A DNA stretch of 34,820 nucleotides from Deltaproteobacteria bacterium RIFCSPLOWO2_12_FULL_60_19 (GTDB lineage Bacteria > Desulfobacterota > Binatia > UBA9968): positions 11,373 through 46,192 of the forward strand of contig MGSS01000059.1 of assembly GCA_001798595.1 (NCBI GenBank), written 5' to 3'. Below, in pieces: positions 1-17,639 of the stretch (positions are counted from its first letter, which is position 1; the number at the start of each line of letters is the position of its first letter). Under the pieces are notes generated by a model. The model searched no databases and had not been told where the DNA came from. It saw nothing but the letters and a program-made list of their open reading frames with translations. The translations under genes and the position numbers were made by a program.

Positions 1-46
1 ATTCGCGCACAACCGGCGAGTCTTCGACGATCAGAACCTTAATCAT
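1..46 (-). CDS. cheB: Response regulator N-terminus, probably CheB (truncated by window edge)
   Basis: Only the first 15 codons are visible. They read MIKVLIVEDSPVVRE, the beta1-alpha1 start of a receiver domain with the acidic pair E8-D9. A Shine-Dalgarno-like GGTGG lies a few bases upstream, and the ATG follows the receiver-HPt gene by 18 bases. CheB methylesterases beside CheR and hybrid CheA often begin with a peptide of this kind. The cluster already holds CheR, CheA, two CheW and two receptors, so CheB is the missing member. The methylesterase domain is outside the window, and a plain CheY-like regulator cannot be excluded. Confidence 0.6.
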   Translation of the reverse strand, partial: MIKVLIVEDSPVVRE

Positions 47-64
47 TATAGGTCCACCTACGGC

Positions 65-814
65 CTAAATTAGTCTTCCGAGTTTAGCCACTGTCTCTTG
101 GAGCGCGCCAAACAGCTCGGGGGCCGGGTTAACATCCTTGCGTTTCCATGCGGCAAAGAGGCTCTCCAAGGATTCGCAGATCGTTGCGATCTCCGCCTGT
201 TTGACTGCTCGCGCGGCGCCCTTCAGAGTGTGCACTTCACGAAAAAGCGCATCGAGAATTTCCTGCTGTTTTTCAGTGCCGGCAATCTTTTTCAACTCAA
301 GGAGGCCGGAAGAGATGCAGCTCACATGCTCTGCAGCCTCGACCTTGAACGTTCCAAGGAGTCTTTTAACAAACTCGTCGTCTTTTTGAGCCGCGAGAAC
401 CGTTACTCCTACGCTGTCTACAGGCACTTTCCCAGGTAGACGGCGACTCTTTCTTGTTGCCAGCTCCCGGAGGGTTTGGACGATCAGCTCCACCGGGGCA
501 GGTTTTCTGAGATATTTGTCGGCGCCTGCGCCTATCGCCAGTTTTTCGTCTGCTGGTGAAGTGTAGGTTGCAGTGTAAAAAATGATGGGGATTCTTTTGA
601 ATTTTTTGCTTCTTTTGACTTTAGAGCAGAGACGATAGCCATCCATTCCTGGCATAAGAATATCTGAGATGATCGCGTCAATTTTTTCCCGTTTTAACTG
701 TTTAAGTGCCGCCAGGCCGTTCTCTGCTTCTATAGTAGTATATCCTTCTGCTTCCAACTGCGCCCTCAGCAGTTTACGATTGACCTGACTATCATCAACG
801 ATGAGTACGGTCAT
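65..814 (-). CDS. Receiver-HPt two-domain phosphorelay protein
   Basis: A soluble 249-residue protein. Residues 1-120 form a receiver: acidic pair D7-D8, phosphoacceptor D51 in SDILMPGMDG, T81 and K104. Residues 140-249 form a histidine phosphotransfer domain with HTLKGAARA around H195. The reading frame is open further upstream, but the start at MTVLIVDDSQ is preferred: it lies one base after the stop of the upstream receiver gene and has an AGAAGGG ribosome site. By eye the HPt is about 53% identical, without gaps, to residues 1-108 of CheA encoded at 7198-9450, so it looks like a copy of CheA P1. There is no kinase or output domain. A role as phosphate shuttle between the hybrid kinase or CheA and receivers of this cluster is inferred. 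Confidence 0.85.
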   Translation of the reverse strand: MTVLIVDDSQVNRKLLRAQLEAEGYTTIEAENGLAALKQLKREKIDAIISDILMPGMDGYRLCSKVKRSKKFKRIPIIFYTATYTSPADEKLAIGAGADKYLRKPAPVELIVQTLRELATRKSRRLPGKVPVDSVGVTVLAAQKDDEFVKRLLGTFKVEAAEHVSCISSGLLELKKIAGTEKQQEILDALFREVHTLKGAARAVKQAEIATICESLESLFAAWKRKDVNPAPELFGALQETVAKLGRLI

Positions 815-815
815 T

Positions 816-1208
816 TCACTGACCCTTCTGGACTTTTCCACCCCGCAAAAACCCCGCGACCTGACTCGGCAATTTGCGCGTATCAATGGGTTTGGCTATG
901 TACCCGTCGCAGCCGGCATTGAGCGCCTTTTCTTCGTCTCCTTTCATGGCGTAGGCGGTGAGGGCCAGAATAACTATCCCTCGTGTCTCCCCGTTTGCCT
1001 TCAGCCTCCGCGTTAGCTCCAGACCGTCCATTTCGGGCAGTTGAATGTCCATCAGGATAAGGCGGGGAGGAAAGGTCTTCAGTACCTCCAGCGCCTCTTC
1101 GGCGTTGGTGGCCGTCTTGACATCATACCCTTCACCCGCCAGGAGGACACGTACCAGCTTCAGGTTCATCGGGTTGTCGTCCACAATTAGAATCGGCTCA
1201 CCGGCCAT
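816..1208 (-). CDS. Single-domain response regulator, DivK/CheY-like
   Basis: A 130-residue stand-alone receiver. It shows the acidic pair D10-D11, phosphoacceptor D54 in LILMDIQLPEMDG, switch threonine T84 in LALTAYAMKGD and lysine K106 in IAKPID. The LTAYAMKGDEEKALNAGCDGY stretch is typical of DivK-like receivers and of receivers attached to hybrid kinases, less so of classical flagellar CheY. No DNA-binding or enzymatic output is present. It lies between the giant hybrid kinase and the receiver-HPt gene, one base from the latter, so the three are likely co-transcribed. It could relay phosphate from the hybrid kinase or CheA, or bind a protein target when phosphorylated; the partner is not known. 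Confidence 0.9.
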   Translation of the reverse strand: MAGEPILIVDDNPMNLKLVRVLLAGEGYDVKTATNAEEALEVLKTFPPRLILMDIQLPEMDGLELTRRLKANGETRGIVILALTAYAMKGDEEKALNAGCDGYIAKPIDTRKLPSQVAGFLRGGKVQKGQ

Positions 1209-1263
1209 AGCAACACTCCAGTCAGTACTTCTCAGTTGTTGGTTTTTATTTAAACTCGAAACT

Positions 1264-4200
1264 CTACTCTCTTGTCTTTGCTGCTGCTTTGCGGGCCGGT
1301 TTTTTAAACTGCGCCTTTTTTTCCGCAGGAATCCTCTCGGCCGGCCTTTCGCCTATGTGAATTCGCAACTCTTCGAGTAGCTGGGCCGCCCCGCTTGGTC
1401 CCTTTTGAACTATAGCTTGCACGGATGCCTGGAGCCGGACGCGGTCATCCCGTGTCAGATCCTTGACAGTCCAGACAATTACCGGCGTTCGGTAGGCACC
1501 GCTCGTCCGGTGGAAGCTCTCTAGAAATTGGAAGCCATCCATGTCCGGCATCAAGAGGTCGAGGATGATGGCCGCAGGCGGTTGTTTCGCCACCGATTTG
1601 AGCGCGGCTCTGGCATCGGTCTCGCAGACAGGAACATATCCGGCGTCGCGTAAGACGCTCTCCGCAAGCTTAAGGGAATGGGGATCATCGTCTATGCAAA
1701 GGACTTTTCTGGATCGATCCCGGACGACCCCCGCTCTCTTGATGGCGGCCAGGAGATCCTCTTTCGCGATGGGCTTTATCAGGAAATCTTGGATCCGGTA
1801 GCCGACCGCGCCTGTTTTATCGGCCACAACCGTAACCACGATGGTGGGAGTTTCCCGGTTCAAGCTGTCTTCCCGGACCTTGCGGAGCAGGTCCCAACCG
1901 TTCATGTCCGGAAGAATGACGTCGAGGGTGATGCCGTCAAAGGCTCGCTCTCGGCAAAGGGCTAACGCCTCCGTCCCGCTACCGGCGATCTCTACGTTGT
2001 AACCGGCGCCGGCAAGAATCTCGGAAAGGCAGGATTGGTCCTTGGCATCGTCCTCGACGACCAGGATGGTAGGTGCATTCGGTCTGGTGACGGGAACCGG
2101 CTTGCGGAGTGTACCTTCCGCAGCGCGAGAGGGAGACTCCGAGTAGCGGGGCAGGACGGCAAAGAAGGTGCTCCCTTTACCCAAGGTGCTGTTCGCGCCG
2201 ACCCTGCCCCCCTGGGCCTCAACGATCTTCTTGGTCAGAGCAAGGCCCAGCCCTGTTCCCGGGTACTTCTTAGCCAGGGTGGCGTCCAGTTGCTGGAATT
2301 CGACAAAGAGCCTTCCCCTATCTTCGGGCTTGATCCCGATGCCAGTATCCTCTACCTCGAGCCGGAAATCCTTAAGACCTTCCGGCGCCGCCCGTACCGT
2401 TATCCGTCCTTCATCGTTGGTGAACTTGATGGCGTTGGAGAGGTAATTGTAGAGCACCTGCTTGAGCTTAGCTGGGTCGAGCACCACGGAGTTGACCCCG
2501 GGATCGATGGAAGTCTCGACCTTGAGCCGCTTTTTCGCCGCCATAGTGCGGACGATATCGCAGGTCTCTCCAACGAGCTTGGTGAGTTCCACGGCCTCGG
2601 GCTGGAGCTCCATCCTTCCGGCCTCCACCTTGGCCAGGTCCAGCACGTCGTTGATGAGCTGGAGGAGGTGTTTGGCGCTGGTGAGGATATCGCCGAGGTA
2701 CTCCTTGTGCTGATCCGAGACCGGCCCCAGCCTGCCGTCGTGCATCATCTCGGTAAATCCAATAATGCCATTGAGCGGCGTTCTCAGCTCGTGGGACATA
2801 TTGGCTAAAAATTCGCTCTTCATCCGGTTCGCCTCTTGGAGCGATTGCTCGAAGCGCTTGCGCTCAGTCACGTCGCGCGCGGCGGCGAACACGCCCTGGA
2901 GCTTGCCGTCCCGGTCATTGAAGGTTGTGGCGTTGTAGGAGACCACCGTAAGGCTTCCGTTCTTGTTGCGGGCCGTGAGTTCGTAATCCGTAACTTTTTC
3001 CTCGCGCAGCACTACGCGGATGCCTTCCTCGGCGCGCTGCGGATCGGTGAAATAGTTTTTGAACGGTGACCCGATTAGCTCTTCGCGGGTGAAGCCGGTC
3101 AGGGACTGCATCTGCTGGTTCACGTCAGTGATGATACCGAGCGGATCTGTGGTCATCAAGGCATCGATGTTCGATTCGATCAGCGAGCGGGTGTAGAACT
3201 GCTGGTCGCGGAACTGGACTTCGAGCTCTTTCTGCGCCGTGATGTCGCGCGCAGCGGCCAGGATGCCCAGCAGCTTTCCGGAAGCATCGCTGAAAACGCC
3301 GGCGTTGAACGACACGGCGATGCGCCGTCCCAGGCGCGTGATCAGGGTCAGCTCGTACGCGAGAACTCGGTTTTCGGTTAGGGTTTGTTGCACTCCTGCG
3401 CTCGCGCGCTCCGGCTCCGTGAAGTAATCCTTGAACCGCGAATTGATGAGATGCTTGCGCGAATAGCCGGTCAGCCGCGTCGCCTCCTCGTTCACGTCGG
3501 TGATGACGCCGTCGGGAGCGATGGCGAACAGGGCGTCCGCTGAGGCCTCGATGAGCGAGCGATTGTAGGCCTGCTGCTCGGCCAACTGGTTCTGCAGCCG
3601 GGCCTGCTCGGAAATATCCCGCGCAGAGGCGAAGATTCCTTGCATGGTGCCATCCGGAGCGCGAAAGACCGAGGCATTGAAAGAGACGGTCGCTTTGCGG
3701 CCGGTCTTGGTTTTGAGGGTGAGCTGGTAGTTCGTGACCACCCCTTCGGCCAGGGTGCGTTTCACGCCGAGGTCAGCTTGATCCGGCTCGGTGAAGTACT
3801 GTTTGAACGTTTTTCCGATCAGCTCCTCACGGGAATAGTCGGTCATGCGGCACATCTGCTCGTTGACGTCGGTGATGAACCCGTCCGGATCGACTGTGAT
3901 CAAACCGTCCACGGAAGATTCAATCAGGCCGCGCAGGTAGTTCTGCTGTTCGCGGAGCTGCTCCTCGAGGCGCACGCGGTCGGTGATGTCGCGGGCGCTG
4001 GCGAAGATGCCGCGCACGTCGCCGCTCGGGTCTTTGAAGACCGAGGCGTTAAACGAAACCTGGAGATGTCGGCGCAAGCGCGAGACCAGGGTGAGCGCGT
4101 ACTCGGTCACAACGCCTTTTTCGAAAGTTTCCTGAACACCGGCTTTGGCGCGGTCCGGCTCGGTAAAGTAGTCGGCGAACGGTGTGCCTATGAGCTCCGC

Positions 4201-7065
4201 GCGCGCATAGCCGGTCATCTGACACATACGGTCGTTGACATCAGTGATAGTGCCAGAGGGGTCCACGGTAATGAGCCCGTCGACCGACGATTCGATCAGA
4301 CCTCGGTTATACGCCTGTTGTTCGCGCAACTGCTGTTCCAGTTTCTTCTGCTCCGTGATGTCCCGTGCGGCGGCGAACACCCCCTGGAGCTTCCCGCTGG
4401 CGTCGTTAAACGTGACCGCGTTGTAGGAGACGACGGTCTCGTGCCCGGTTTTACTGCGGGCGGTCAACTCGTAGTTGGTAACCTTGCCCTCCCGGACCAC
4501 TGTTTGGATGCCTTCCTCGGCCCGTCGCGGATCCGTGAAGAAATTCTTGAAAGGAGAGCCGATGAGATCTTCCCGGCTGTAACCTGTCAGTGCCGCCATT
4601 TGCTGGTTGACGTCCGTGATCGTTCCCACTAGGTTCGTAGTCATGAGCGCGTCGACGTTGGCCTCGATCAGGGAGCGCGTATAGAATTGCGACGCCTGGA
4701 GCTGTCCTTCGAGCTGTTTTTGCGCCGTGATGTCGCGGGCGGAGGCGAAGATGCCGCGTATATTGCCGCTAGGATCCTTAAAAACAGCCGCGTTAAACGA
4801 GACGGGAACTTGCCGGCCATCGGCCGCCTGCATGGTAAGCACGTAGTTGGTGACCGCGCCTTCTTTAAAGGTGAGCGTCACGCCTTCCTCGGCGCGGCCG
4901 CGCTCCGTGAAGTAGCCGGGGAACGAGGAGCCTATGAGCTGAGTGCGGGGCCTTCCAACCATGCGGCACATGGTCTCGTTGACGTCCGTGATGGTCATGG
5001 ACTCATCGACTGTGACCAGGCCGTCCACCGAGGCTTCAATCAAGCCCCGATTGTAAGCGCGTTCGTCAGCCAACTGCTTCTGCAGCCCCGCTTGCTCAGT
5101 GATATCGCGCGCGGAGGCGAAAATGCCGCGCACCTGCCCTGAAGGATCTTTGAAAATTGCCGCGTTGAATGACACGAGGCTTTCACGGCCGCCCTTGGTG
5201 CGCAGACTGAGCTCGTAATTGGACACCGCTCCTTTGTCCAGGGTCAGACGCACTCCCTCCGCAGCTCGCTTGGGGTCAGTAAAGTATTTGGAGAACGGTG
5301 TGCCGATAAGCTCTTCGCGCGGGTAACCGGACATGCGGCACATGGTTTCATTGACATCGGTAATGGTTATCATCGCGTTCACGGTGATCAGGCCGTCCAG
5401 AGAGGCCTCGATCAAGCCGCGATTGTAGGCCCGCTCGTCCGCTAGTTGTGACTGGAGCCGCGCCTGTTCCGTGATGTCGCGCGCCGAGGCGAAAATGCCG
5501 CGGATATTACCGGAGGGGTCCTTGAAGACCGAAGCGTTAAAGGAGACCTGGAGATGCTTGCCATCGCGCTTGGCCAGGCTCAGAACGTAGTCGGTGACGA
5601 TGCCCTTTTGAAACGTCTCATTGACTCCGGCGGTGGCGCGGTCTCCATCCGCGAAGTAGTCGGCAAACGGAGTGCCGATAAGCTCCTCTCGCGAGTAGCC
5701 CGACATGCGGCACATCTGCTCGTTGACGTCCGAGATCGCGCCCGAAGGGTCCACCGTGATCAGGCCGTCAACGGAAGCCTCGATCAACCCGCGGTTGTAG
5801 GCCTCGGACTCGCGCAGTTGTTGTTCAAGTTTCTTCTGCTCGGTGATGTCCCGCGCGGCGGCAAATACTCCCTGGAGTCTTCCCTTATCATCCCGGAAGG
5901 TGGACGCGTTGTACGAGACGACCGTCATGCGCCCATCTTTCGAAAGAGCCGTCAATTCATAGTTGGTGACCTTTCCTTCGCGGAGCACCCGGCGGATACC
6001 TTCTTCGGCTCGCGTCGGGTCCGTGAAGTAATTCTTGAAGGCCGAGCCGATCAGATACTCCCTCCCGTAGCCGGTAAGCACCGCCATCTGTTGATTGACG
6101 TCCGTGATGATCCCTACCGCATCCGTGGCCATCAGCGCGTCAATGTTCGATTCAATCAGCGAGCGGGTGTAGAGTTGCGTGGCCCTAAGCTCGTCTGTCA
6201 GACGGATTTCCTCCGAGATGTCTTTCGAAATGAGCAGAAAGCCGATCGCTTTGCCCGAGGAGTCGCGGCGGGGAGTCATGACCACGCGAGCGGTGAAGCG
6301 CTCGCTGTTTTTGCGGATTCTTTGGATAGTTCCTTCCCACTTGCCCTCCCGCAGCGCCGTCTGCATAATCTGGAGATGCTTGCCTGATTTTATGTCTTCA
6401 GGAACGTGGAGGATGGAAGAATTCGCCCGGCCTACGACCTCCGTCGGCTCATAACCGTACAACCGCCTGGCGCCTTCGTTCCACAGAAGAATTGCCCCAT
6501 TAAGGTCTTTGCCGATGATGGAATACTCGGTGGAGGACTCGAGAATATTGGTGATGAAGTCCAGCGCGCCCTGGGCGTCGCCGACAATGGCGCTGTCGAA
6601 AAGGTTGGCTCGTCGGAGATCCTCGGCAAAGCGCTGTTCGCTTGTAATATCTTTGGAGATCAGGAGGAAGCCGATGGCTTGGCCTGAGGAGTCGCGGCGA
6701 GGAGTCATGACCACGCGAGCGGTGAAGCGCTCGCCGTTTTTGCGGACCCGCTGGATCGTCCCTTCCCACTTGCCGTCGCGTAACGCAGCCCCCATGATCT
6801 CACGCGGCTTTCCGGCCTCCACGTCCTCCGGTGTATGGAGGATGGAAGAGTTGGCCTTGCCGACAACCTCTTCGGGGCCGTACCCATAGATGCGCCGGGC
6901 GCCCTCGTTCCAAAGAAGAATCTTTCCATCGATATCCTTGCCGATAATCGAGTACTCGGTGGAAGATTCCAGAACGTTTTGTAGGAAGGATAAGAGGTCG
7001 CCGACCTCCCGACCCACAAGCCGGCTTGTGGTTATAGTCGCGGACTCTATCTTGACATCGCTCAT
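1264..7065 (-). CDS. Giant soluble hybrid histidine kinase: 11 PAS, HisKA, HATPase, two receivers
   Basis: A 1933-residue protein with no membrane segment, so a cytoplasmic sensor. PAS1 (about 20-160) and PAS2 (about 163-299) form one related pair. PAS3-PAS11 are nine exact 124-residue units from residue 300 to 1415, each ending in an ARDITEQ-like linker helix. HisKA follows with phosphoacceptor H1425 in MSHELRTP. The ATPase domain has N-box N1540/N1544, DTGIGI from 1573 and GTGLGL from 1603. Receiver 1 has D1715 and receiver 2 has D1836 and K1888. The last 20 residues are Lys/Ala-rich. The ATG has a GGCGAGG ribosome site. Known PAS domains bind heme, flavin or small molecules or mediate dimerisation; no specific ligand can be read here. 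The adjacent DivK-like receiver and receiver-HPt protein are the obvious relay partners. Confidence 0.95.
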   Translation of the reverse strand: MSDVKIESATITTSRLVGREVGDLLSFLQNVLESSTEYSIIGKDIDGKILLWNEGARRIYGYGPEEVVGKANSSILHTPEDVEAGKPREIMGAALRDGKWEGTIQRVRKNGERFTARVVMTPRRDSSGQAIGFLLISKDITSEQRFAEDLRRANLFDSAIVGDAQGALDFITNILESSTEYSIIGKDLNGAILLWNEGARRLYGYEPTEVVGRANSSILHVPEDIKSGKHLQIMQTALREGKWEGTIQRIRKNSERFTARVVMTPRRDSSGKAIGFLLISKDISEEIRLTDELRATQLYTRSLIESNIDALMATDAVGIITDVNQQMAVLTGYGREYLIGSAFKNYFTDPTRAEEGIRRVLREGKVTNYELTALSKDGRMTVVSYNASTFRDDKGRLQGVFAAARDITEQKKLEQQLRESEAYNRGLIEASVDGLITVDPSGAISDVNEQMCRMSGYSREELIGTPFADYFADGDRATAGVNETFQKGIVTDYVLSLAKRDGKHLQVSFNASVFKDPSGNIRGIFASARDITEQARLQSQLADERAYNRGLIEASLDGLITVNAMITITDVNETMCRMSGYPREELIGTPFSKYFTDPKRAAEGVRLTLDKGAVSNYELSLRTKGGRESLVSFNAAIFKDPSGQVRGIFASARDITEQAGLQKQLADERAYNRGLIEASVDGLVTVDESMTITDVNETMCRMVGRPRTQLIGSSFPGYFTERGRAEEGVTLTFKEGAVTNYVLTMQAADGRQVPVSFNAAVFKDPSGNIRGIFASARDITAQKQLEGQLQASQFYTRSLIEANVDALMTTNLVGTITDVNQQMAALTGYSREDLIGSPFKNFFTDPRRAEEGIQTVVREGKVTNYELTARSKTGHETVVSYNAVTFNDASGKLQGVFAAARDITEQKKLEQQLREQQAYNRGLIESSVDGLITVDPSGTITDVNDRMCQMTGYARAELIGTPFADYFTEPDRAKAGVQETFEKGVVTEYALTLVSRLRRHLQVSFNASVFKDPSGDVRGIFASARDITDRVRLEEQLREQQNYLRGLIESSVDGLITVDPDGFITDVNEQMCRMTDYSREELIGKTFKQYFTEPDQADLGVKRTLAEGVVTNYQLTLKTKTGRKATVSFNASVFRAPDGTMQGIFASARDISEQARLQNQLAEQQAYNRSLIEASADALFAIAPDGVITDVNEEATRLTGYSRKHLINSRFKDYFTEPERASAGVQQTLTENRVLAYELTLITRLGRRIAVSFNAGVFSDASGKLLGILAAARDITAQKELEVQFRDQQFYTRSLIESNIDALMTTDPLGIITDVNQQMQSLTGFTREELIGSPFKNYFTDPQRAEEGIRVVLREEKVTDYELTARNKNGSLTVVSYNATTFNDRDGKLQGVFAAARDVTERKRFEQSLQEANRMKSEFLANMSHELRTPLNGIIGFTEMMHDGRLGPVSDQHKEYLGDILTSAKHLLQLINDVLDLAKVEAGRMELQPEAVELTKLVGETCDIVRTMAAKKRLKVETSIDPGVNSVVLDPAKLKQVLYNYLSNAIKFTNDEGRITVRAAPEGLKDFRLEVEDTGIGIKPEDRGRLFVEFQQLDATLAKKYPGTGLGLALTKKIVEAQGGRVGANSTLGKGSTFFAVLPRYSESPSRAAEGTLRKPVPVTRPNAPTILVVEDDAKDQSCLSEILAGAGYNVEIAGSGTEALALCRERAFDGITLDVILPDMNGWDLLRKVREDSLNRETPTIVVTVVADKTGAVGYRIQDFLIKPIAKEDLLAAIKRAGVVRDRSRKVLCIDDDPHSLKLAESVLRDAGYVPVCETDARAALKSVAKQPPAAIILDLLMPDMDGFQFLESFHRTSGAYRTPVIVWTVKDLTRDDRVRLQASVQAIVQKGPSGAAQLLEELRIHIGERPAERIPAEKKAQFKKPARKAAAKTRE
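2821..6168 (-). repeat. Nine tandem 372-bp PAS-coding repeats arranged in a four-unit super-repeat
   Basis: These units encode residues 300-1415 of the hybrid kinase, all exactly 124 codons. Units 1, 5 and 9 begin TRSLIE and carry DVNQQM. The other units mostly begin NRGLIE. Diagnostic residues pair unit 2 with 6 (FADYF, HLQVSFNASVFKDPSG), 3 with 7 and 4 with 8 (ITAQK then QFY). The array therefore reads as two copies of a four-PAS block (4681-6168 and 3193-4680, 1488 bp each) plus the first unit of a third (2821-3192). Confidence 0.9.
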
Positions 7066-7197: not shown

Positions 7198-9450
7198 TTA
7201 AACTAACCTTCGGATGACCTCGAGCAGATTGCTCTGGTCAAAGCTGCTTTTCACGATATACGCGTTCGCGCCGACGTCGATGCCGCGCTCGCGGTCTTCC
7301 CGGGACTCGAGGGCCGTCACCAGCACCACAGGCACCGCGGACAGTTTCTTGTCCGCGCGGATCCTGGCGGTAAGGTCAAAGCCGTTCATGCGGGGCATAT
7401 CCACGTCCGACACCACGAGATCGAATTCGCCGCCGCGCAGCTGCGTAAAGCCGTCGATGCCGTCGACGGCGGCGGCGACCTGGTATCCCGCGGCCTCGAG
7501 GATATTCTTGACCAGCGCCCGCGCCGTGATCGAGTCCTCCACCACCAACACCGATTTTTTCTCCGCTGGTTCTTTTTCGCCGGGGGCGGCGGCTTCCCGG
7601 ACGGTCGCCGCGCTCAGGCGCACCGCAGATTTCATCAAATCCGGCACGTTGACGACGGGCACGACTCGTCCCGAGCCCAGAACCGTTGCCCCGGCGATAT
7701 TGCGCACGCGGGAAAGTTGCTTGCCCAGGCTTTTCACCAACACGTCCTGCTCGTTCAAGATTTCATCCACCATAAATGCAATGCGCTTCTCCGCCAGACC
7801 GAGAACCAGCGCCGGCGCGGCGTCCGCGGAATCGCCCGTCGCGCGTTTGCGCGGAAGTTCCAAAGCGTCTCCCAGGCGAGCCAGAGGGACCACGTGTCCG
7901 TTGAGTTGGATGGTCTCCCGGTTTTCCGCCGTTCGAATAGAATCCCTTTTGACCTTCAGAGTGCGCTCCACCGAGGCTAGCGGAAGGATGAAGAAATGTT
8001 CGTTGACCCGAACGAGAATTCCCCTGAACGTCGCCAGCGTCACCGGAAGAACAAGCCGGAACGCAGTCCCGGCGTCGGGTTGGCTCTCCATGGAGACTGT
8101 GCCGCTCAGTTTTTCCGCCTTTTCGCGGACAATAGCGAGACCGAGCCCTCTGCCGGAGAGATCGGTGATGATGGGACTGGTGGAGACTCCTGATTGGAAA
8201 ATCAGCGCCAACGCCTCCCGGTCGCTCAGCTTTTCCGCCTCCTCCTGGGAAACCGTCCCAAGCCTCGATGCCGCCGACCTGACCTTCGCAACGTCGATTC
8301 CCGCTCCATCGTCGGCGATCAGCGCCTCGACTTTATTGCCGTCTTTCTGCGAGACGGTGATCCCGACTCTCCCGCGAGATGGTTTCCCTTTTCGCCTTCG
8401 CTCCTCCGGCTTTTCAATGCCGTGATCGATACAGTTTCTAACCAGATGAATCAGGGGGTCTTTGACTTCTTCCAAAATTCTCCTGTCGATCTCGATCTCT
8501 CCCCCTTGGATCGACAGCTCCACCTCTTTTCCCTGCTCCCGGGAGAGGTCGCGGACAAATCTTGGAAAGATCTCCAAAATCGAAGAAAAGGGAAACATCG
8601 ATAGCCGCTTCATCTCCGCCAGGAGGTCGTCAACCAGTCTGCCGAGCGTCCGTTGATCGAGATCCGCCAGCTTCTTCATGCTTGCGAGTTTGGCCTCGAC
8701 CGATGCGGCGGCCCGTTCGTTTCGCTCCACAAGCTCCCTCAACGTCTCAACCTCCGACCGCCGGACCCGGCCCCCCGAAATCCGCCCCTTGATTCTTGCG
8801 CTCTCTCTTTTCCATGCGGCAAGCGCCGCGTTCACTTGGCCGAGCTCCGCGGCGCGCTGGACCGCCGCCAGTTTTGAGGTCAGCAGCTCCTCCGCTTGAA
8901 GCAACAGCGGCCCCAGCTTTGCCGTAGGGATCCGTATCGTATCGGCCATAGGGGGACGGAGGGCCGGCGTCGGATGTTCGTCCTGCGCTATCTGCAAACT
9001 CCGGCCGCCGGTGGCCGGCTCCTCGTCTCTCGGAACCAACCCTCTTGACGCCTCCTCAAGGCGCTGAATGAGATGCTTGAGCTGAGACTCTTCCGAAGCG
9101 GCGCTTGGGCCGCCGCCGGAGGACAGCAATTGACCCAGAGCGTCCACTGCCGGGTGAAGGAGATCGCACAACTCCGGCGATGGGGCTATCGCTTCCTGCT
9201 TTAACGCCGCAAAGATGCCCTCCAGGGATTGGCAGACCGCCTCGATTTCGGTCATGTTTACGGCGCGGGCGGCGCCTTTCAAACTATGCGCTTCGCGAAA
9301 GACCGCTTCCACGATCTGCGTCTGTCTCTCAGCCGCCGGCGTTTTCTCGATTTCCAAGAGCCCGGAGGTGATGGCCTTGAGGTGCTCCTCGGCCTCGGCT
9401 TTAAATGTCGCAAGCAACTCCTTTAGAAAGTCGTCGTCTTTCTTGGCCAT
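7198..9450 (-). CDS. cheA: CheA-type chemotaxis histidine kinase with C-terminal receiver
   Basis: A 750-residue hybrid CheA. P1/HPt spans residues 1-110 with phosphoacceptor H55 in EAHSLKGAARA. A linker follows, then a dimerisation region (about 215-310). The ATPase domain has N-box HLVRNCIDHGIE (335-346), DDGAGID (380-386) and GRGLGL (433-438). A CheW-like P5 domain covers about 471-615 and a receiver 630-750 with D682. There is no recognisable P2 domain. CheA autophosphorylates under control of receptor-CheW complexes and passes phosphate to receivers. A fused receiver is usual in chemosensory systems of alternative function, where it may be output or phosphate sink. It lies 44 bases downstream of a receptor gene and upstream of the PAS kinase. 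Confidence 0.96.
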   Translation of the reverse strand: MAKKDDDFLKELLATFKAEAEEHLKAITSGLLEIEKTPAAERQTQIVEAVFREAHSLKGAARAVNMTEIEAVCQSLEGIFAALKQEAIAPSPELCDLLHPAVDALGQLLSSGGGPSAASEESQLKHLIQRLEEASRGLVPRDEEPATGGRSLQIAQDEHPTPALRPPMADTIRIPTAKLGPLLLQAEELLTSKLAAVQRAAELGQVNAALAAWKRESARIKGRISGGRVRRSEVETLRELVERNERAAASVEAKLASMKKLADLDQRTLGRLVDDLLAEMKRLSMFPFSSILEIFPRFVRDLSREQGKEVELSIQGGEIEIDRRILEEVKDPLIHLVRNCIDHGIEKPEERRRKGKPSRGRVGITVSQKDGNKVEALIADDGAGIDVAKVRSAASRLGTVSQEEAEKLSDREALALIFQSGVSTSPIITDLSGRGLGLAIVREKAEKLSGTVSMESQPDAGTAFRLVLPVTLATFRGILVRVNEHFFILPLASVERTLKVKRDSIRTAENRETIQLNGHVVPLARLGDALELPRKRATGDSADAAPALVLGLAEKRIAFMVDEILNEQDVLVKSLGKQLSRVRNIAGATVLGSGRVVPVVNVPDLMKSAVRLSAATVREAAAPGEKEPAEKKSVLVVEDSITARALVKNILEAAGYQVAAAVDGIDGFTQLRGGEFDLVVSDVDMPRMNGFDLTARIRADKKLSAVPVVLVTALESREDRERGIDVGANAYIVKSSFDQSNLLEVIRRLV

Positions 9451-9494: not shown

Positions 9495-10265
9495 TTACAC
9501 TTTGTATCGCTCCACCAGCTGCTTGAGTTTTTGCCCCAGTTCGTGCAGGTTCCGCGCCGCCGCCTCAGCCTGTTTGGTGCCGGCGACGTTTTGCGTGGTG
9601 GCCTGTTTGATGCTCTCCATCGCCGCCGCCACCTGATCCATCCCCACGAGTTGCTGCTGGCTCGAAGCGGCGATCTGGGTTGCCGCCTGAGCCGATTCCC
9701 CGATACTCTCCGCCAGTATTCGGATCGACTCGCCCGCCTCGGTGGATTGTTTGACGCCGGCATCCACCGCCTTGGTCCCCTGTTCCGTTGCCAGGACCGC
9801 CGTACCGGTTGCTTTTTGAATGTCAGTGAGGATAGAGCGCACCTGGGCCGTCGCCTGCTTGGACTGTTCCGCCAGGCTCCTGACCTCCTGGGCCACCACG
9901 GCAAAGCCTTTTCCGTGTTCGCCCGCTTTGGCCGCCTCGATGGAGGCGTTGACCGCCAGGAGGTTGGACTGATCGGCCAGATCGTTGACCGTGGCGATGA
10001 TCTCTCCGACGGTTTGGCTCTGCTCGCTCAGCCGCACGATGCTCTCGGCGATGGCTTCCATCTGCTCCCTGATGCGGTTCATTCCCTCGACAGTGTCGTT
10101 CACCGACTTCTTGCCGGTTTGCGAAACCTGCGCCGACTTCTGAGCGGTCTCGGAGACGTACTTCGCTTTTTGGCTGGAGACCTGAGCGGTCTGTTTCACC
10201 TCTTCCACGGTAGTAGTGGTCTGGCTGATGGCTGTTCCGGTCTCCGCCGCTCCGGAGGCGACCTG
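9495..10265 (-). repeat. Receptor signalling-domain repeat, copy 1
   Basis: The 3' 771 bases of this receptor gene align without gaps to 11153-11923. By eye there are 32 amino-acid differences in 256 codons (about 87% identity). One 107-base block, 9922-10028, is identical to 11580-11686. Confidence 0.9.
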
Positions 10266-11132
10266 GGTCGTCGCCGCCAGAATCTCGCTGGCGGAGGAGC
10301 CAAGGACGTTTATCCCCTCGCGGATATTCCCAGTCACCTCCCGGAGACTCTCCACCATCCTGCGGAAGGTCTGAGAGAGAACGCCCACCTCATCGGCTCG
10401 ATGATCGCGGGCCATATTGACGGTAAGGTCGCCCGCAGCGACCAGGTCCGCGATGCGCGACAGCTCGCGCAACGGTCCCGCGATCACCCGCGCCATCGAC
10501 AGCGCCAGCACGATGCCGATTGCCACCGCCACGATCCCGACGAACAGAAAAATGCCAAACAATTGATTTGCCCGCTGCTCGGCGTGGGCCAGGCCGAGGC
10601 GCGCGCCTTCTTCCGACGCCTTGCCCAATTCCTCGGCAATGGCGCGAATCTTCTGCGCCCGCCCCTGCTGCACGCCGACCGCGAACTGCCGCGATGCCGC
10701 TAAATTGCCGGCGAGGATCAAAGGAATGATTTCGGCATCCTTGGTCTGGGCGAATGCCTGCCAGACGGACTTCAGCTCCTCGAGCCGCGACAGCCGGTTG
10801 GGATCGTTCTTCGCCCGCTCCAGGAGGCTGAGCGTGATCCCGTCAATCTGTTTCGAGCGTTCCGCCGCTTGCGCCAACAGGGGATCCTGTTCCGTGCGTT
10901 TGCTCAACAGCTGCGCTTCGAGCATCAACACCCGCATCCCGTTGTAATTGGCGCGCAGAGCCATCAGATCGCGCACGTTGGCGAAGTCTTCTTTGTAGAG
11001 GCGATTCTGCGACTCCAGGATCGTGGCGATTCCGGTGTATGCGGTGGCAATCACCCCTGCGAACAGCGCAAATATCAGACCGAAGCAAACAAACAGCTTG
11101 CCGCGCATTGTAAGATTAAGAAACCATTTCAT
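9495..11132 (-). CDS. Methyl-accepting chemotaxis protein with HAMP domain
   Basis: A 545-residue transmembrane receptor. TM1 is about residues 12-34. A roughly 155-residue helical periplasmic region of four-helix-bundle type follows. TM2 is about 191-213, a HAMP domain about 214-268 (P220, then DEV at 247-249), and the signalling hairpin runs from about 275 to the end. The hairpin tip holds [19 protein letters not shown]. The C-terminus is a plain helix ([10 protein letters not shown]) without a CheR-docking pentapeptide. It should transmit a periplasmic signal to CheA/CheW. Its last 256 codons are nearly the same as those of the next receptor gene upstream. The ATG follows the upstream stop by 20 bases and has AGGGG as ribosome site. 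Confidence 0.95.
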
Positions 11133-11152: not shown

Positions 11153-11923
11153 TTACGCCCTATCGTGTTCCACCAACTGTTTTAGCTTCCGGCCGAGTTC
11201 GTTCAGGTTGTGAGCGGCCGTCTCCGCCTGTTTGGTGCCGGCAACGTTTTGCGTGCTGGCCTGCTTAATGTTCTCCATGGCCAAAGCCACTTGATCCATC
11301 CCCACCAGTTGCTGCTGGCTCGAGGCGGCGATCTGGGTCGCCGCCTGGGTTGACTCGGTAATGCTATCCCCCAGCAGCCGGATCGACTCGCCCGCCTCGG
11401 TGGATTGTTTGACGCCGGCATCGACCGCCTTGGTCCCCTGTTCCGTCGCCAGGACCGCCGCGCCGGTGGCTTTTTGAATGTCAGTGAGGATAGAGCGCAC
11501 CTGGGCCGTAGCCTGCTTGGACTGTTCCGCCAGGCTCCTGACCTCCTGCGCCACCACGGCGAAGCCTTTCCCCTGTTCACCCGCTTTGGCCGCCTCGATG
11601 GAGGCGTTGACCGCCAGGAGGTTGGACTGATCGGCCAGATCGTTGACCGTGGCGATGATCTCTCCGACGGTTTGGCTCTGCTCGCTGAGCCTTACGATAG
11701 TCTCAGCCACGGATTCCATCTGTTCCCGGATGCGGTTCATGGCGGCTATGGTCTCGTCCACCGATTTCTTTCCCGTCTGGGAGACCTGCGCGGACCGTTG
11801 CGCGCTTTCGGATACATACTTGGCTTTTTGGCTGGAGACCCCGGCGGTCTGCTTCACCTCTTCCACGGTCGTGGTGGTTTCGCTTACCGCGGTGGCCGTC
11901 TCCGCCGCCCCGGAAGCTACCTG
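11153..11923 (-). repeat. Receptor signalling-domain repeat, copy 2
   Basis: This is the partner of 9495-10265: same length, no gaps, with a 107-base identical block at 11580-11686. The periplasmic halves of the two receptors are not obviously alike, so similarity is confined to the cytoplasmic part. Confidence 0.9.
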
Positions 11924-12613
11924 AGTCGTCATGGCCAATATCTCCGCCGAGGAGGAAGAGAGCCGAGCGATCGCTTCGCGCAATTGTCGCGTGATCGACC
12001 TGGTAAGTTGAAAACCAATGGCGAGGCCGGAAACAATGGCGAGCAACGAGACGGCAACCAACAGAAAAGCGGAGCGGCCGAGTGTTTTTGAAAGATCCTC
12101 GCGTCCCTCGGCGAGACGCTTCTGTTGAAGTTCAATATACTGATCGCATTGGTCCCGTAGCTTAAGCGCGACAGGAAGCAATTCTTTGTCGCTTAGGGCA
12201 ACGGCTTCCTTGCGTTTTTCCTGCTGCAAAAACGCGATGCCTTGTTCTTGTCCCGCTTTATATTTCTTTTGAGTTTCCGCGATTTCCCCCAAGATGCGGC
12301 GCGCGGTCTCGGAGCGGGAAAGAGTTCGGAGTTTTTCAAGCAACGCATCAAACTGGCGCTGGCTGTCACGCAACTCTTTTACAAGTCTACTTTGCTCTTC
12401 AGAGTAGAGAAGCAACCCGCGGAACTGCGCTGTCTGGTCTCTCGCCTCCAGTTTAAGCGCCGTAGCGGTAAGAATAGCCTGCGTATCGACATCCAGAAAC
12501 TCGGTGTAGGCTCCTTCGGCTGTTCTAAAGAGGTAGAAGGCGGCTGCGGTCACAATAAGTAAGAGGATGAGCACGACTACGTAGCCGCCGATAAGTTTTT
12601 TGCCGATGGTCAT
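11153..12613 (-). CDS. Methyl-accepting chemotaxis protein lacking a HAMP domain
   Basis: A 486-residue receptor. TM1 is about residues 8-30, a helical periplasmic domain about 31-180, TM2 about 182-202, and the signalling hairpin about 217-486. Aligned to the neighbouring 545-residue receptor, the sequence passes from a short basic helix after TM2 ([14 protein letters not shown]) straight into [17 protein letters not shown]. About 51 residues that form HAMP in the paralogue are absent. There is no C-terminal CheR-docking pentapeptide. The start is supported by AAGGAGAG 7-8 bases upstream. It lies 12 bases after the cheW stop. It should still engage CheA/CheW, because the hairpin tip is intact, but signal conversion across the membrane must differ. 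Confidence 0.93.
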
Positions 12614-12625
12614 GATGGGCTCTCC

Positions 12626-13156
12626 TTAACTCTCTACCTCTTCGCGCACGACGATACTTTCGTCGGTAAGAAGCTTCCCGGCGTCGAGCAGGACGACTCT
12701 CTCCGGCGTCACGCCCCTGAGATACTGTTCTCGGATGCCCGTGAGAGTAGGCAGCGACGGCTGAACGTTCCTGAGCGCGATCCTTCGCATGCCCAGGATG
12801 GCGTCCGCGAGGATGCCGAATTCCATTGCGTGGTTGTGAATGATGACGACCTTGTTCAGGTCCGTAAGCCCTTTTTCCGGCAGGTCGAAGAACTTCTTGA
12901 GGTCGATGACGGAAACGATTTGTCCGCGCACGTTGATGATGCCGAGAACGAAGGGCGCCACGCAGGGCACGGGAGTGAGCTCCTTTAGCGGATAGACCTC
13001 GCGGACGTAAGACGATTCAATGCCGTACCTTTCGTAAGCCAGCTGAAACTCCAGCACCTCGATTTCCTCTCCGGCAGGCGCCTCTCCCTTGGGTTCTCGC
13101 GCAAGCGCTCGCGCCCGCTCCTTGAGGGTGCGCTTTTTATTCTCCGCAGTAGGCAT
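12626..13156 (-). CDS. cheW: CheW-like coupling protein (5' end uncertain)
   Basis: From the first ATG this is 176 residues: a basic leader (KKRTLKERARALAREP) followed by a CheW domain from about residue 30 (EVLEFQLAYERYGI, then GIINVRGQIVSVIDLKKFF). CheW links receptors to CheA. Upstream of the ATG the same frame stays open to 13261 and reads as real protein (AVDWQEIRQRLGAAQEAAEGG), but contains no ATG, GTG or TTG. An AGGA ribosome site sits 8 bases before an in-frame ACG at 13258. Alternatively a GTG at 13265 would be in frame if one A of the AAAAA run were missing. The gene follows cheR and precedes the two receptors. Confidence 0.9.
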   Translation of the reverse strand: MPTAENKKRTLKERARALAREPKGEAPAGEEIEVLEFQLAYERYGIESSYVREVYPLKELTPVPCVAPFVLGIINVRGQIVSVIDLKKFFDLPEKGLTDLNKVVIIHNHAMEFGILADAILGMRRIALRNVQPSLPTLTGIREQYLRGVTPERVVLLDAGKLLTDESIVVREEVES

Positions 13157-13289: not shown

Positions 13290-14837
13290 TTACGCGTTGA
13301 TTTCCGCGTTCGATCCCTGAACTTTCGCCGATCCAATAATCTCGATCAGCCTGCCCGCAGTCAGGCCGTCGGAGTCGGGCAAAACGTCTTCCGGGCGATA
13401 GGCGCTCAAGCTCGAGAGTGCATTTTCAAAATGCTTGTTCGACTCCTTGAACCTCTCTTGCCGCAGGGCAAGGCTGCCTAACGCAAAATGGGCAAGGGTG
13501 AAGTTCTGATCGAGATATAGCGTGCGCCTGAGCGACGCCATGGCATCCTCGACGGCCCCTCGCTCCTGAAGGATCATGCCTTCCAGAAAGTGAAGAGCCG
13601 GGTTCAACCGGTCTCCCGCCCGGGCCTTTTCGCACCACTCCAGAGCTTCCTGAAGCTTGCCTTGATTGGCATAGAGCCGGGCGAGAAGGGCCATCGCGTT
13701 GGTATCGTCTCCTTTGTCCAGCAGGCGCAAAGAAAGTTTTTCCACAGCTTCCTCATAACGGCCTTGTCCATAGAGTCGGAATGCCTCCGTATAGAGAGGC
13801 GATTGGGATTCATCGAACTTGCGTTCGGCGCCCTCTGTTGCGGGAGCCGCCTCCCGACCGGGCGCGTCTTCTTCCGCCGCTCCTGACGAAAAAACCTCCG
13901 CCGCCGGCCCGGCAATGGCCTCGGCCGGCGCCGGCGGCGAAACGTTCGCCGCCTCCATCGCCCTGGAACCATACGCCTCCGGGCGGCCTGCGCCGGCGTC
14001 CTTTTTATAAAGGATCGCTTCTTCGAGACTGGCCATCGTAAATTGCGAGAAGAGCGCGTGAGAGGCTTCACTCGGACTGGCGATCAGCCATCCGCCGTCG
14101 ACGAGCGCGTCGTGGAACTGACGCACGGTTTGTCTTGCCCGCTCCGGCGCAAAGTACATGAGGACATTGCGGCAAAGGATCAGGTCCATGCCATTGGTGT
14201 TGTTCAGCAGCGACGGATAACCGTCTTCGGCTAAATTGAGGTAAGAGAAAGTGACCATCTTCCTGATTTCAGGCAGGATCTCGTAACGGCTCTCCTTTTG
14301 AAAAAAACATCTCTCCTTGACCCAGCGCGGCGTATCTCGAAAGGACCACTCGCCGTAAGCGCCGTCGGCGGCCTTGCGAAGAAACGAAGGGTTGATATCC
14401 GTTCCCAGGATCGTGATATTCCAATCCCCCAGGTCGGGGATTAACTTGCGCAGTAAAATGGCTATGGAATAAGGCTCCTCGCCGGTGGCGCAACCGGCGC
14501 TCCAGATTCTCAGGCGCCGCTGGCCGCGCCGGCGCGAGCCGATCAAATCGGGAAAGATGTGCTCTTCCAGGGCGGAGAAGGTGTTTTTTTCTCGGAAGAA
14601 ATAGGTCTCCCCGACGGTGAGATGGCTCGCCAGAGTCTCGATCTGTCGTTTCGTCAAAGGCGAAGAGATGAGCCATTGGGCACAGAGCTGCCCGCTGTCA
14701 AAGCCGAACTGCCGGGAGGCCGACTTGATTCCTCGCTCCAGATCCGGCCATCTTTCTTTCGGGAAATACAGCCCCATTTGCGAGGCGATAAAATCGCTGA
14801 AATGCGACAGCACGATGGCGGGTAAGCTTTCAGCCAT
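13290..14837 (-). CDS. cheR: CheR-type receptor methyltransferase with C-terminal TPRs
   Basis: 515 residues from the chosen start. The N-terminal CheR helical domain is about residues 5-80. The S-adenosylmethionine-dependent methyltransferase domain is about 85-280 and shows LRIWSAGCATGEEPYS, TDINPSFL and LILCRNVLMYF. An Ala/Pro/Glu-rich linker covers about 285-345, and two to three TPR-like repeats run from about 345 to 475. It methylates glutamates of the receptors; TPRs on CheR are found in Wsp/Frz-like systems and are thought to control receptor access. An ATG 21 bases further upstream exists, but MAESLPAIV at 14837 is chosen because GGGGAG lies 8 bases before it. It overlaps the cheW stop by 8 bases, indicating translational coupling. 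The receptors lack a docking pentapeptide, so recruitment must differ from E. coli. Confidence 0.95.
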   Translation of the reverse strand: MAESLPAIVLSHFSDFIASQMGLYFPKERWPDLERGIKSASRQFGFDSGQLCAQWLISSPLTKRQIETLASHLTVGETYFFREKNTFSALEEHIFPDLIGSRRRGQRRLRIWSAGCATGEEPYSIAILLRKLIPDLGDWNITILGTDINPSFLRKAADGAYGEWSFRDTPRWVKERCFFQKESRYEILPEIRKMVTFSYLNLAEDGYPSLLNNTNGMDLILCRNVLMYFAPERARQTVRQFHDALVDGGWLIASPSEASHALFSQFTMASLEEAILYKKDAGAGRPEAYGSRAMEAANVSPPAPAEAIAGPAAEVFSSGAAEEDAPGREAAPATEGAERKFDESQSPLYTEAFRLYGQGRYEEAVEKLSLRLLDKGDDTNAMALLARLYANQGKLQEALEWCEKARAGDRLNPALHFLEGMILQERGAVEDAMASLRRTLYLDQNFTLAHFALGSLALRQERFKESNKHFENALSSLSAYRPEDVLPDSDGLTAGRLIEIIGSAKVQGSNAEINA

Positions 14838-15309
14838 TGGTAGCGCTCCCCAGCGCATCGCGCAGACTATGTTCTTCTTCGAGCGACAAGAATGTTTCCA
14901 GATCGTTGATAAGCACTAGACCGTCTTCCAGCTTGGCCACGCCTTCCAGATATCCCGTTCCCGGAACGATCTCGGCCGCATCGATCACTGCGCCTTTGGG
15001 CCGTTCGATCAGGCCGCCGACCGAATCCACCTGCAGAGCGACAAGCCTCTTTGAAGTTTGGGCGATGATTAACTGGTCGGTGAGAGCGATTTCTCGAGCG
15101 GGACGACTGAGCCGCTTGCGGATATCGATGACCGGAACGATCCGCCCCTGAACGTTGACCACGCCGGCCACGATGTCGGGCGCCTTGGGGAGCGGAGTGA
15201 TCTCTACCATGCGGAGTGCTCTTTCCACAACGGGAAGGGGCAGCGCAAAGCGCTGCTCGTCAAGCGAGAAAACGACAAATTGGTCGGACGATTCCAAGAT
15301 TACTTTCAC
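14830..15309 (-). CDS. cheW: CheW-like coupling protein
   Basis: A CheW domain of about 159 residues: FVVFSLDEQRFALPL, then GVVNVQGRIVPVIDIRKRL and a C-terminal LINDLETFLSLEEE. It bridges receptors and CheA. The frame is open to 15408, but the only start there is TTG inside the upstream kinase gene. The GTG at 15309 is chosen because it overlaps the stop of a 17-codon reading frame as GTGA and lies just before the conserved domain. The strongest ribosome site and ATG in the area (TAGGAGAG, ATG at 15359) belong to that other frame, which meets a run of six A before stopping. Leader-coupled initiation, frameshifting or a one-base sequence error are all possible. It overlaps cheR by 8 bases. Confidence 0.88.
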   Translation of the reverse strand: MKVILESSDQFVVFSLDEQRFALPLPVVERALRMVEITPLPKAPDIVAGVVNVQGRIVPVIDIRKRLSRPAREIALTDQLIIAQTSKRLVALQVDSVGGLIERPKGAVIDAAEIVPGTGYLEGVAKLEDGLVLINDLETFLSLEEEHSLRDALGSATNG

Positions 15310-15359
15310 GCTTTTTTGTAAGCCAAAAACCCGCAGCAATCGGCCTGAGAGGCTTGCAT
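15306..15359 (-). CDS. Possible 17-residue upstream ORF coupled to cheW
   Basis: It begins at an ATG with a strong TAGGAGAG site that overlaps the stop codon of the preceding kinase gene, and encodes MQASQADCCGFLAYKKA. Its TGA overlaps the GTG of cheW. It may be a real coupling ORF. It may instead be the true N-terminus of CheW, put out of frame at an A6 run. Confidence 0.3.
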   Translation of the reverse strand: MQASQADCCGFLAYKKA

Positions 15360-15368
15360 CGGTCTCTC

Positions 15369-17639
15369 CTACGTGGTTGGGGCCCGTGCTCCTTGTGGCT
15401 GTTCGCAAGGCATCCTCACCGTGAACGTCGAGCCTTTGCCCGGCTCGCTCTCCGCCTGCACCGTTCCCCCCAACAGCTCGGTGAATTTCTTCGCGATATA
15501 AAGTCCCAGGCCGACGCCGCCGTAGAGACGGGTCTCCGAGCTGTCCACCTGGTAGAATTTGTCGAAGATGCGATCGAGCTTGTCTTTGGGGATTCCGACG
15601 CCGGTGTCGGACACCCGCAGCTCCACAAAGCGGGAGTTGGGAGTTAGGGATTGGGAATTGGGAGTTGGGGATTGGGGAGCGGCCCCAATTCCTAATTCCT
15701 GATTCCCAACCCCCACCCGGGCGGCGATGTGGATAGCGCCCTTGTCCGTGAACTTGATCGCGTTGTTGATGAGGCTTTGAAGAATTTGCTTGAGCTTGCC
15801 GATGTCGGTCGCGATCGGCATCGGATCAGATGGATAGTCCCAAATGAGCGCCAGTTCCTTCTTGTCGTGGGCAAGCTCGTAGTCCGATCTAAGGCCTCTC
15901 AGGAGATCCGAGAGATTCACTACGTCGCGCTCCAGCGTGGTCGCGCGGGCTTCCAGTTGCGTGGTCTGCATGATGGTGTTGATCATGGCGAGCTGGTCGG
16001 CCGCGCGGCTGAGAACCTTCTGCAGCGCCTCTTTCTGCTTGGGGTTGATCTCGCCCAGCATTCCCTCCTTGACCATGCCGGTATAACCCATGACTACGCT
16101 TAGCGGAGTCCTCAGCTCGTGCGACATCACGCTCAGGAATTCGTCTTTCACCGTATTGGCTTGTCTCAGCTCTTCCGCGTGTCGTCTGAGGTTCTCAAAG
16201 AGCCGGGAGTTCTGGATCGCGATGGCGGCCTGGGCCGCGAGTGTCGCCAGGAACTCGACCTCTTTGGCGCTGAACTGATGCTCCCTCTTTGTGTAAAAGG
16301 AAAGCACTCCTAAGACCTCGCCTTTGGCGATCAGCGGGACTCCGAGATAAGAGATCAAACCATGCTTACGGAAAAACTCAGGGTCTTTTACGTCTGGGTC
16401 CGTTTGCACATTGCGGACCATCCGGGATGCCTTAGCCTCGAACACGGCGTTCGGGATGCCGCGCCCGGCTTTCCACTTTTCCGCCTTCCATTCCGTTTCG
16501 TCCAGGCCGCGACAGGCTATCGGCTCCAATAGTCCGGACTCTTGGTTGAAGAGCCTGACGGTGGTAGCGGAATAATCCGGTAGAAAAAAGTCAATTTTTT
16601 GCAGCAGCACATCCAGGGTGGCGCGGAGGTCCAGGGTCGAGGTGATGGCCAGGTCTATGTCGTGCAGCGCGCGAATGCGCTGGAGATTGCGCTCGGTCTC
16701 CTCCTGCGCGTGGGCTTTCTGGATAGCGATGCCCATCTGATCGCTGATGGCCACTAATAAACGAATCTCGTCCGGATTGAATTTTTGCGGCGCGCGGGTG
16801 CCGAGTTGAAAGACGCCGAGAACCACGTCTTTAGCGCGCACCGGGATCACGATGCCCGACTGAACCCCTTCTCGCTTCCAGGTCCGCTGCCCGTCGCTGT
16901 GCTGAACGTCCTCTTCGACGCGCGGTTCCTTGAAGTTCATTACTCGTGCCGTTATCTTACCGAGGGAATCGCTGGTTCTCTGCTGATGCCTTTCGACGTT
17001 CTCTCGGTCGTGATACCCGCGCCAGGCCACCGGCATCAGGGTTGCCGTGACCGGATCAAATAGCCGGATAATGCCGATGTCGTAAGGGCGTGCGGCCATG
17101 GCTTTATCCAGGATCTTCTCCATGGTGGTGTGGATATCCGGCGCCGTCAGGATGATCTGGCTCACCTCTTGAAGAGTCTCCAATTCCTGATAGCGGCTCT
17201 TGAGGGACTCATCCGCCTGGCGCTTCTCATCGCGCAACTGCTTCTCTTTCAGCGCGCGCGCGACCGCATCGCCCAGGCGCGTCATGCGGTCTTTCAGGAT
17301 ATAATCCGTCGCGCCTTGCTTGAGCCGCGCGACCGCGACCTCCTCGCTGATGCTGCCCGTAACCACGATGAGCGGGATATCCAGGGCGCTGGCCTTCAAG
17401 AGTTCAAGCGCTCGGGGCGCGCCGAATTCCGGGAGGGTGTGGTCCGCAAGGATGATATCAGGGGCGCTTTGGAGTTGACTCAGGTAGTCGGCCTCGGTCT
17501 CGACTCGCCGCCATGCGGGTTCATAACCGGACCGCTGAAGCTCGTAGAGCATCAGCTCGGCGTCCGCGGGGCGGTCTTCCACGATTAGTACCCGAAGCGG
17601 GGTGCGCAGAGGCGTCTTTTTTGCCGGCATGCTCGTCAT
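15369..17639 (-). CDS. Receiver-GAF-GAF sensor histidine kinase
   Basis: 756 residues and no membrane segment. Receiver about 14-135 with D66 at the phosphoacceptor position ([11 protein letters not shown]). A coiled linker follows, then GAF1 about 155-310 and GAF2 about 325-480. HisKA has H507 in [10 protein letters not shown]. The ATPase domain has an N-box ending NNAIKF (625-630), SDTGVGI from 677 and GVGLGL from 708. Residues about 643-671 (rich in Asn, Ser, Pro) are an insertion between N-box and G1 box, encoded by a palindromic G-rich repeat. An N-terminal receiver makes it likely to be controlled by another kinase. Its ATG overlaps the stop of the upstream Rcp1-like receiver as ATGA, so the two are translated together. 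Confidence 0.93.
15627..15713 (-). repeat. Palindromic G-rich repeat translated within the kinase ATPase domain
   Basis: The plus strand carries seven runs of three or four G separated by 3-5 bases (GGGAGTTGGGAGTTAGGG and onward), then ATTGGGG (15671-15677), AGCGG, CCCCAAT (15683-15689) and further inverted material. It is a multiple of three and leaves the kinase open. The peptide contains [13 protein letters not shown]. The G runs lie on the template strand. Confidence 0.85.

Follow-up and report, generated by a model that had tools for sequence, protein, structure and literature searches.

The operon and its REC-HPt gene

The window, by which we mean the whole stretch of 34,820 nt that was analyzed (contig MGSS01000059.1), carries a chemosensory operon close to one end. 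The genes are ordered CheW, CheR-TPR, CheW, MCP, MCP, CheA-REC, an 11-PAS hybrid kinase, a receiver, a receiver-HPt protein (REC-HPt) and cheB. The gene set CheW-CheR(TPR)-CheW-MCP-CheA(REC)-CheB is complete at the locus and, from this architecture, we take it to be that of the ACF class, presumably Wsp-like. The features are as follows:

1–46, minus strand: start of cheB, with 18 nt between the REC-HPt stop and its ATG (at 46); the remainder of the gene lies outside the window
65–814, minus strand: REC-HPt protein, 249 aa (ATG at 812–814, stop at 65–67)
68–391, minus strand: CheA-P1-type HPt domain of REC-HPt, residues 142–249 (site His195; K198, G199, E217)
392–439, minus strand: linker of REC-HPt, residues 126–141 (BLASTP against the local CheA)
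440–814, minus strand: receiver domain of REC-HPt (REC') and start of the linker, residues 1–125 (Pfam; site Asp51)
816–1208, minus strand: REC1, a single receiver of 130 aa, whose stop is separated by 1 nt from the REC-HPt start; it shares 64% identity with its counterpart at the L054 locus described below
1264–7065, minus strand: PAS hybrid kinase, 1933 aa (about 11 PAS domains, HisKA-HATPase and two C-terminal receivers)
7198–9450, minus strand: CheA, 750 aa (P1, HATPase, CheW-like P5 and C-terminal REC)
9124–9447, minus strand: P1 of the local CheA, residues 2–109 (BLASTP; Pfam Hpt at 11–106)
9495–11132, minus strand: MCP with HAMP, 545 aa (Pfam)
11153–12613, minus strand: MCP, 486 aa (Pfam)
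12626–13156, minus strand: CheW (Pfam)
13290–14858, minus strand: CheR with TPR repeats (Pfam)
14830–15408, minus strand: CheW (Pfam)

No P2 domain was found in the local CheA. Just beyond the window, in the first cheB codons, a run of N (11356–11372 of L003) upsets the cheB frame as read.

Only two Pfam domains are present in the 249 aa of REC-HPt, Response_reg at residues 3–115 (95 bits) and Hpt at 151–245 (52 bits), and the domain bounds are placed at 1–115 for the receiver and about 144–249 for the HPt. As P3, P4 and P5 are absent, the protein was rejected as a CheA kinase. The site residues of the receiver are intact (acidic pair D7/D8, phospho-Asp D51, T81 and K104), and the fusion point, at about residues 140–142, is where a CheA N-terminus (KKDDDF-like) starts. 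The GC3 of the gene (0.52) is lower than that of its operon neighbours (0.64–0.78) and near that of the REC' gene at L054 (0.50). In a full-length model built from the single sequence the pLDDT of the receiver was under 50, and only the alignment-built model of the HPt was used.

The genome is 97% complete and Pfam detects two HPt domains in it, that of REC-HPt and that of CheA itself. A hybrid kinase in need of an HPt partner would therefore use one of these two, unless its true partner is a divergent HPt that falls below the Pfam threshold or lies in the missing 3%.

Origin and age of the HPt domain

In a pairwise BLASTP alignment, residues 142–249 of REC-HPt match residues 2–109 of the local CheA without gaps (57/108 identical, 79/108 positive, E 2e-35). 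The preliminary description had reported about 57 identities by eye in a gapless match; the count proved exact, while the CheA residues, given there as 1–108, are shifted by one. The motifs it had noted at the start of the domain and around the histidine are also present (KDDEF at 144–148 and FREVHTLKGAARAV at 191–204), and its statement that other HPt domains are far removed agrees with the mean identity of ordinary HPts of relatives to this domain, which is 27%. The corresponding means are 30% for P1 domains of CheAs of other classes, 45% for those of ACF-type CheAs and 50% for those of CheAs from the same family.

Profiles made from sequences that did not include the query rank the domain in the same order, with scores of 123.9 bits against the ACF-type CheA P1 profile, 73.5 against that of P1 from other CheAs and 15.9 against that of ordinary HPts; the P1 of the local CheA scored 150.9, 87.1 and 27.9 bits against the same three profiles. 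When the HPt alone was compared with NCBIfam, CheA models were the sole matches, and in the PDB the only sequence matches with E < 0.01, designed proteins aside, were two Thermotoga CheA P1 structures (the designed proteins, 6een etc., were dismissed as helical-repeat artefacts). The AlphaFold model of the HPt, built with an alignment, is a helical bundle (pLDDT 94) whose top fold match in the PDB is Thermotoga CheA P1 (1tqg, TM 0.80). Salmonella P1 and the P1 of R. sphaeroides CheA3 are among the top dozen matches, and non-CheA HPts such as HptB or AHP2 rank after the CheA P1s at TM 0.5–0.6.

Two trees were inferred, of 147 and 51 domains, and both place the REC-HPt domain among CheA P1s with ordinary HPts outside, so that the grouping with non-CheA HPts which the preliminary description had named as evidence against a P1 origin was obtained in neither. 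In one tree it falls within the ACF P1 set (SH-aLRT 96) and in the other it lies on the CheA side of a branch supported at 99/99. These trees use 101 columns, and forcing the domain out of the P1s was not significantly rejected (p value of 0.22 when it was placed with all non-ACF domains); tree support is thus moderate. An AU test of REC-HPt with generic HPts was set aside, as it only shifts the root and so carries no information. Since the forced-tree tests are not decisive, the P1 placement is carried by the profile scores. Taken together, these comparisons support derivation of the HPt of REC-HPt from a CheA P1, specifically from that of the Wsp-like, ACF-type CheA-REC kinases.

Whether the source was the local CheA is a separate matter. 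The two P1 domains in the operon are 51.5% identical, whereas the P1 of the local CheA shares 62–69% identity with the P1 of CheAs from further genera of its family, so that either the duplication is old, or the REC-HPt P1 evolves fast, or its source was another CheA. The earlier claim of a copy of CheA P1 therefore stands as regards a CheA P1 origin and is too strong in naming the local gene. A sister relationship of the two domains received a p-AU of 0.325 on the 101 columns, which neither shows nor rejects it. At four-fold degenerate sites, agreement is as expected of unrelated sequences (8/24, i.e. saturated), and identity at codon positions 1, 2 and 3 is 66, 77 and 40%, respectively. Saturated synonymous sites combined with higher identity at position 2 than at position 3 indicate, at the level of codon comparison, an old split of the two P1s and purifying selection on that of REC-HPt, with the protein sequence held.

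Of the 23 columns conserved in ACF P1 domains, REC-HPt keeps 19, including the phospho-His (H195), the remainder of the HxxKG motif (K198 and G199) and the activating Glu (E217). Residues typical of the class are also kept (A200, R202, V204 and C213). The four altered columns, K175, D188, T196 and A210, might alter a contact.

The PAS-kinase cassette and its occurrence in other genomes

In the relatives examined, cheB lies directly after cheA, so the three genes ending in REC-HPt (11-PAS hybrid kinase, single receiver REC1 and REC-HPt) represent an addition between cheA and cheB. REC' is 52% identical to a lone REC' at L054, and 48% and 44% identical to REC'-HK proteins of two further genomes (G024 and G069), in which it is fused to a histidine kinase, with related genes for hybrid kinases and receivers nearby. 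Close relatives of REC' in 30 further genomes from the phylum sample lie at the head of open frames measuring some 310–960 aa, all longer than REC-HPt. Judged by these alignments, the output head of REC', a histidine kinase in relatives, is replaced here by the P1 of a CheA.

Another member of the family (G003; L167, 3346–9380) has a related hybrid kinase and single and double receivers directly downstream of cheB in the same type of operon, which indicates that the cassette has met this operon type more than once. In a further relative (G004), ACF-type cheA occurs at two loci (L164 and L165), both of them without an extra P1.

A second locus with the cassette, L054, lies on a contig of Methylomirabilota (JACQQF010000005) and reads MCP, a free P1 (114 aa), PAS kinase, three receivers, REC', CheA and CheB. 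Here REC' carries no head and is directly upstream of an intact CheA, and the free P1 is on the other side of the cassette. The PAS kinase of the window is 78% identical to the L054 kinase (985–5904) over 1616 aa, and the adjoining CheAs are 47% identical; the G+C content of the L054 cassette is 0.49–0.55, compared to 0.64–0.66 in its flanks. This difference in identity and the low G+C make it most likely, on compositional and similarity grounds, that the cassette moved laterally into L054. Among 94 Methylomirabilota genomes, a close REC' occurs in this one only, and a free ACF-type P1 occurs in two, including this one. The PAS array of the kinase is 74–86% identical between the two genomes, as against 45% for part of the kinase core, and is thus an unusually conserved sensor array.

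Over about 74 codons, the free P1 of L054 (628–972) and the P1 of the adjoining CheA (7720–8060) are 96% identical in DNA and then diverge abruptly, and the tail of the free P1 scores 64 to other Methylomirabilota CheAs compared to 29 to its own CheA. The abrupt end and the differing affinities of the tails point to a mosaic of P1 copies arising from gene conversion or from recombination at P1. Both loci would be explained by an ancestor of the form CheA-cassette-CheA, in which the second CheA was cut back to its P1 in the lineage of the window and the first in that of L054; no locus with both CheAs around the cassette was found.

Such an ancestor would also suit the view that the P1 of REC-HPt is a vestige, the non-functional leftover, fused by chance, of a second CheA that lost its core once the cassette had been inserted. 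The L054 P1 stops at the boundary of the domain on the far side of the cassette, with REC' beside CheA, as that history predicts, and the synonymous divergence described above implies an old event. Decay over such a time sits poorly with 77% identity at codon position 2 against 40% at position 3 when synonymous sites are saturated, with the retention of all invariant residues, and with an open frame and coupled gene spacing, and we regard a vestige as quite improbable.

The REC-P1 fusion itself is rare. A search covering some 1,300 genomes from four phylum-level samples, a number of them searched repeatedly, used the HPt alone as query, as whole-protein searches of relatives were swamped by receiver matches, and found no REC-P1 fusion elsewhere; a contig scan for close peptides, which reaches close relatives only, found no further fusion. 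Free P1s were seen in the search and scan at L054 and L055 only, and the counts of REC-P1 and of free P1 are lower bounds on what exists. At L055, a Rokubacteria contig of 3.8 kb, the stand-alone P1-like frame (545–874) departs from P1 sequence at its C-terminus and may be a decayed CheA; no che gene was found on that contig. Short P1 frames at L058, L097, L209 and L213 were discarded as CheA genes cut by contig ends, and plasmid matches spanning REC and HPt proved, in the three records read (H2, H4 and H7), to be a response-regulator gene beside a full CheA gene and no fusion.

A single occurrence in a draft genome of 162 contigs raises the question of a chimeric contig joining unrelated genes. 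The fusion, however, is a single uninterrupted frame in a window free of N and is followed by the cheB of the operon, the operon agrees with those of relatives on both sides of the cassette, and the cassette recurs, together with an extra P1, in an operon of this kind in an independent genome, that of L054. An assembly artefact is hardly conceivable.

Proposed role and relation to known systems

The best-supported account is that REC-HPt may well be a phosphorelay adaptor that joins an acquired PAS cassette to the ACF CheA/CheB core. It is the last protein encoded by the PAS-kinase cassette (PAS hybrid kinase, REC1, REC'-X) placed between cheA and cheB. His195 would receive phosphate from the PAS hybrid kinase, by way of that kinase's receivers or of Asp51 of REC', and/or from P4 of CheA in trans, and the phosphate would pass to those receivers that a P1 of this class recognises by descent, the REC domains of CheA and CheB. 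PAS input would thereby reach both adaptation and the output of CheA. Transfer might also run in reverse, given that His-Asp transfer is reversible and two-way exchange is expected. The receiver of REC-HPt belongs to the inserted cassette, in which it normally carries a histidine kinase, a point that the preliminary description had missed, and flow from the cassette to the chemosensory proteins is thus at least as likely as the opposite.

We infer this role from what the sequence shows, namely where each half comes from, that the active-site residues are retained, that the genes are tightly packed (1 nt to REC1 and 18 nt to cheB) and that the P1 is under purifying selection. Precedents make each step reasonable and none proves it: CheA4 phosphorylates the Hpt of CheA3, and phosphate returns from receivers to CheA (PMC2924250); R. 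centenum CheA3 phosphorylates a receiver of the co-encoded PAS kinase CheS3 (PMC3868531); and separate P1s are known in operons of P1-less CheAs (PMC10782961). Confidence in the adaptor is held at an intermediate level by the weak tree support for an origin from the operon's own CheA, by the four altered P1 columns, by the chance that a further HPt escaped detection, and by the presence of REC-P1 in one genome, so that there is no cross-species conservation to draw on.

The preliminary description had suggested phosphorylation of the P1 in trans by the CheA core, with phosphate passing to its own receiver or to those of the hybrid kinase, so that chemosensory input drives the cassette. The ACF-specific P1 residues are kept and the two genes share an operon; moreover, phosphorylation of a separate P1 in trans is established (PMC2924250) and a liberated P1 is functional (PMC10782961). 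The local CheA, however, has its own intact P1, so that nothing forces use in trans, and the changes at K175, D188 and A210 might matter. As the whole explanation, this direction of flow is plausible and distinctly less probable than an adaptor.

Alternatively, REC-HPt could compete with the P1 of CheA for P4 or for receivers, or drain phosphate, and so act as a sink or scaffold with no relay role, in the manner of FimL, with CheA regulated by a paralogue of its own HPt region. Receivers fused to CheA are commonly sinks (PMC10782961), and FimL, a free paralogue of the ChpA N-terminus that lacks the phospho-His, is thought not to carry phosphate (PMC3019171). In REC-HPt, unlike FimL, the phospho-His and the receiver Asp are intact, and we consider a sink or scaffold unlikely.

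Returning to the adaptor, a broader reading, which we regard as possible but rather improbable, is that of a horizontally mobile PAS-kinase cassette that uses a CheA P1 as its port in che operons, with an extra P1 accompanying it either fused to the terminal receiver or at the other end. If so, a PAS sensor would be wired into CheA/CheB signalling with CheA itself untouched.

How two-component and chemosensory pathways come to be joined is generally surmised from genes lying side by side. In this operon the joint can be read in the sequence: a receiver from one of the two systems no longer has its usual kinase head and carries instead the phospho-accepting domain of the other, and these are the only two HPts detectable in the genome. 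REC-HPt is small and purifiable, and provides a test case of whether P1 specificity alone routes phosphate between a PAS kinase and CheA/CheB.

REC-HPt is a rare variant of known parts and not a new kind of system. Its P1 resembles those of the Wsp-like, ACF-class CheA-REC kinases in sequence profile, fold, phospho-His and class-specific residues, but is without P3-P4-P5, lies behind a receiver and is a second copy beside an intact CheA. As in bipartite CheA (PMC10782961), a separate P1 is encoded in the operon of a CheA; there, the CheA lacks an Hpt, whereas the local CheA keeps its own (Pfam, 11–106), which rules out a bipartite reading, and the extra P1 has a receiver. In Rhodobacter sphaeroides CheA3/CheA4 (PMC2924250, PMC10782961), a P1 is likewise carried by a non-autophosphorylating protein in the operon of a CheA core, but CheA3 contains a CheW domain and lacks a receiver, and CheA4 is without P1. 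The Che3 system of Rhodospirillum centenum (CheA3, CheS3 and CheY3; PMC3868531) is similar in its ACF-like operon, hybrid CheA, REC-PAS kinase and joined phosphate flow (here a putative one), but CheA3 acts straight on a CheS3 receiver with no extra HPt protein. Pseudomonas aeruginosa FimL (PMC3019171) is also a free paralogue of a CheA N-terminal Hpt region, but its phospho sites are occupied by Gln and it lacks a receiver. Lastly, multi-Hpt CheAs such as ChpA (PMC10782961) likewise place additional P1-like domains and a receiver within a single pathway; there, the copies lie inside CheA, whereas here the extra copy is on a separate protein of the cassette.
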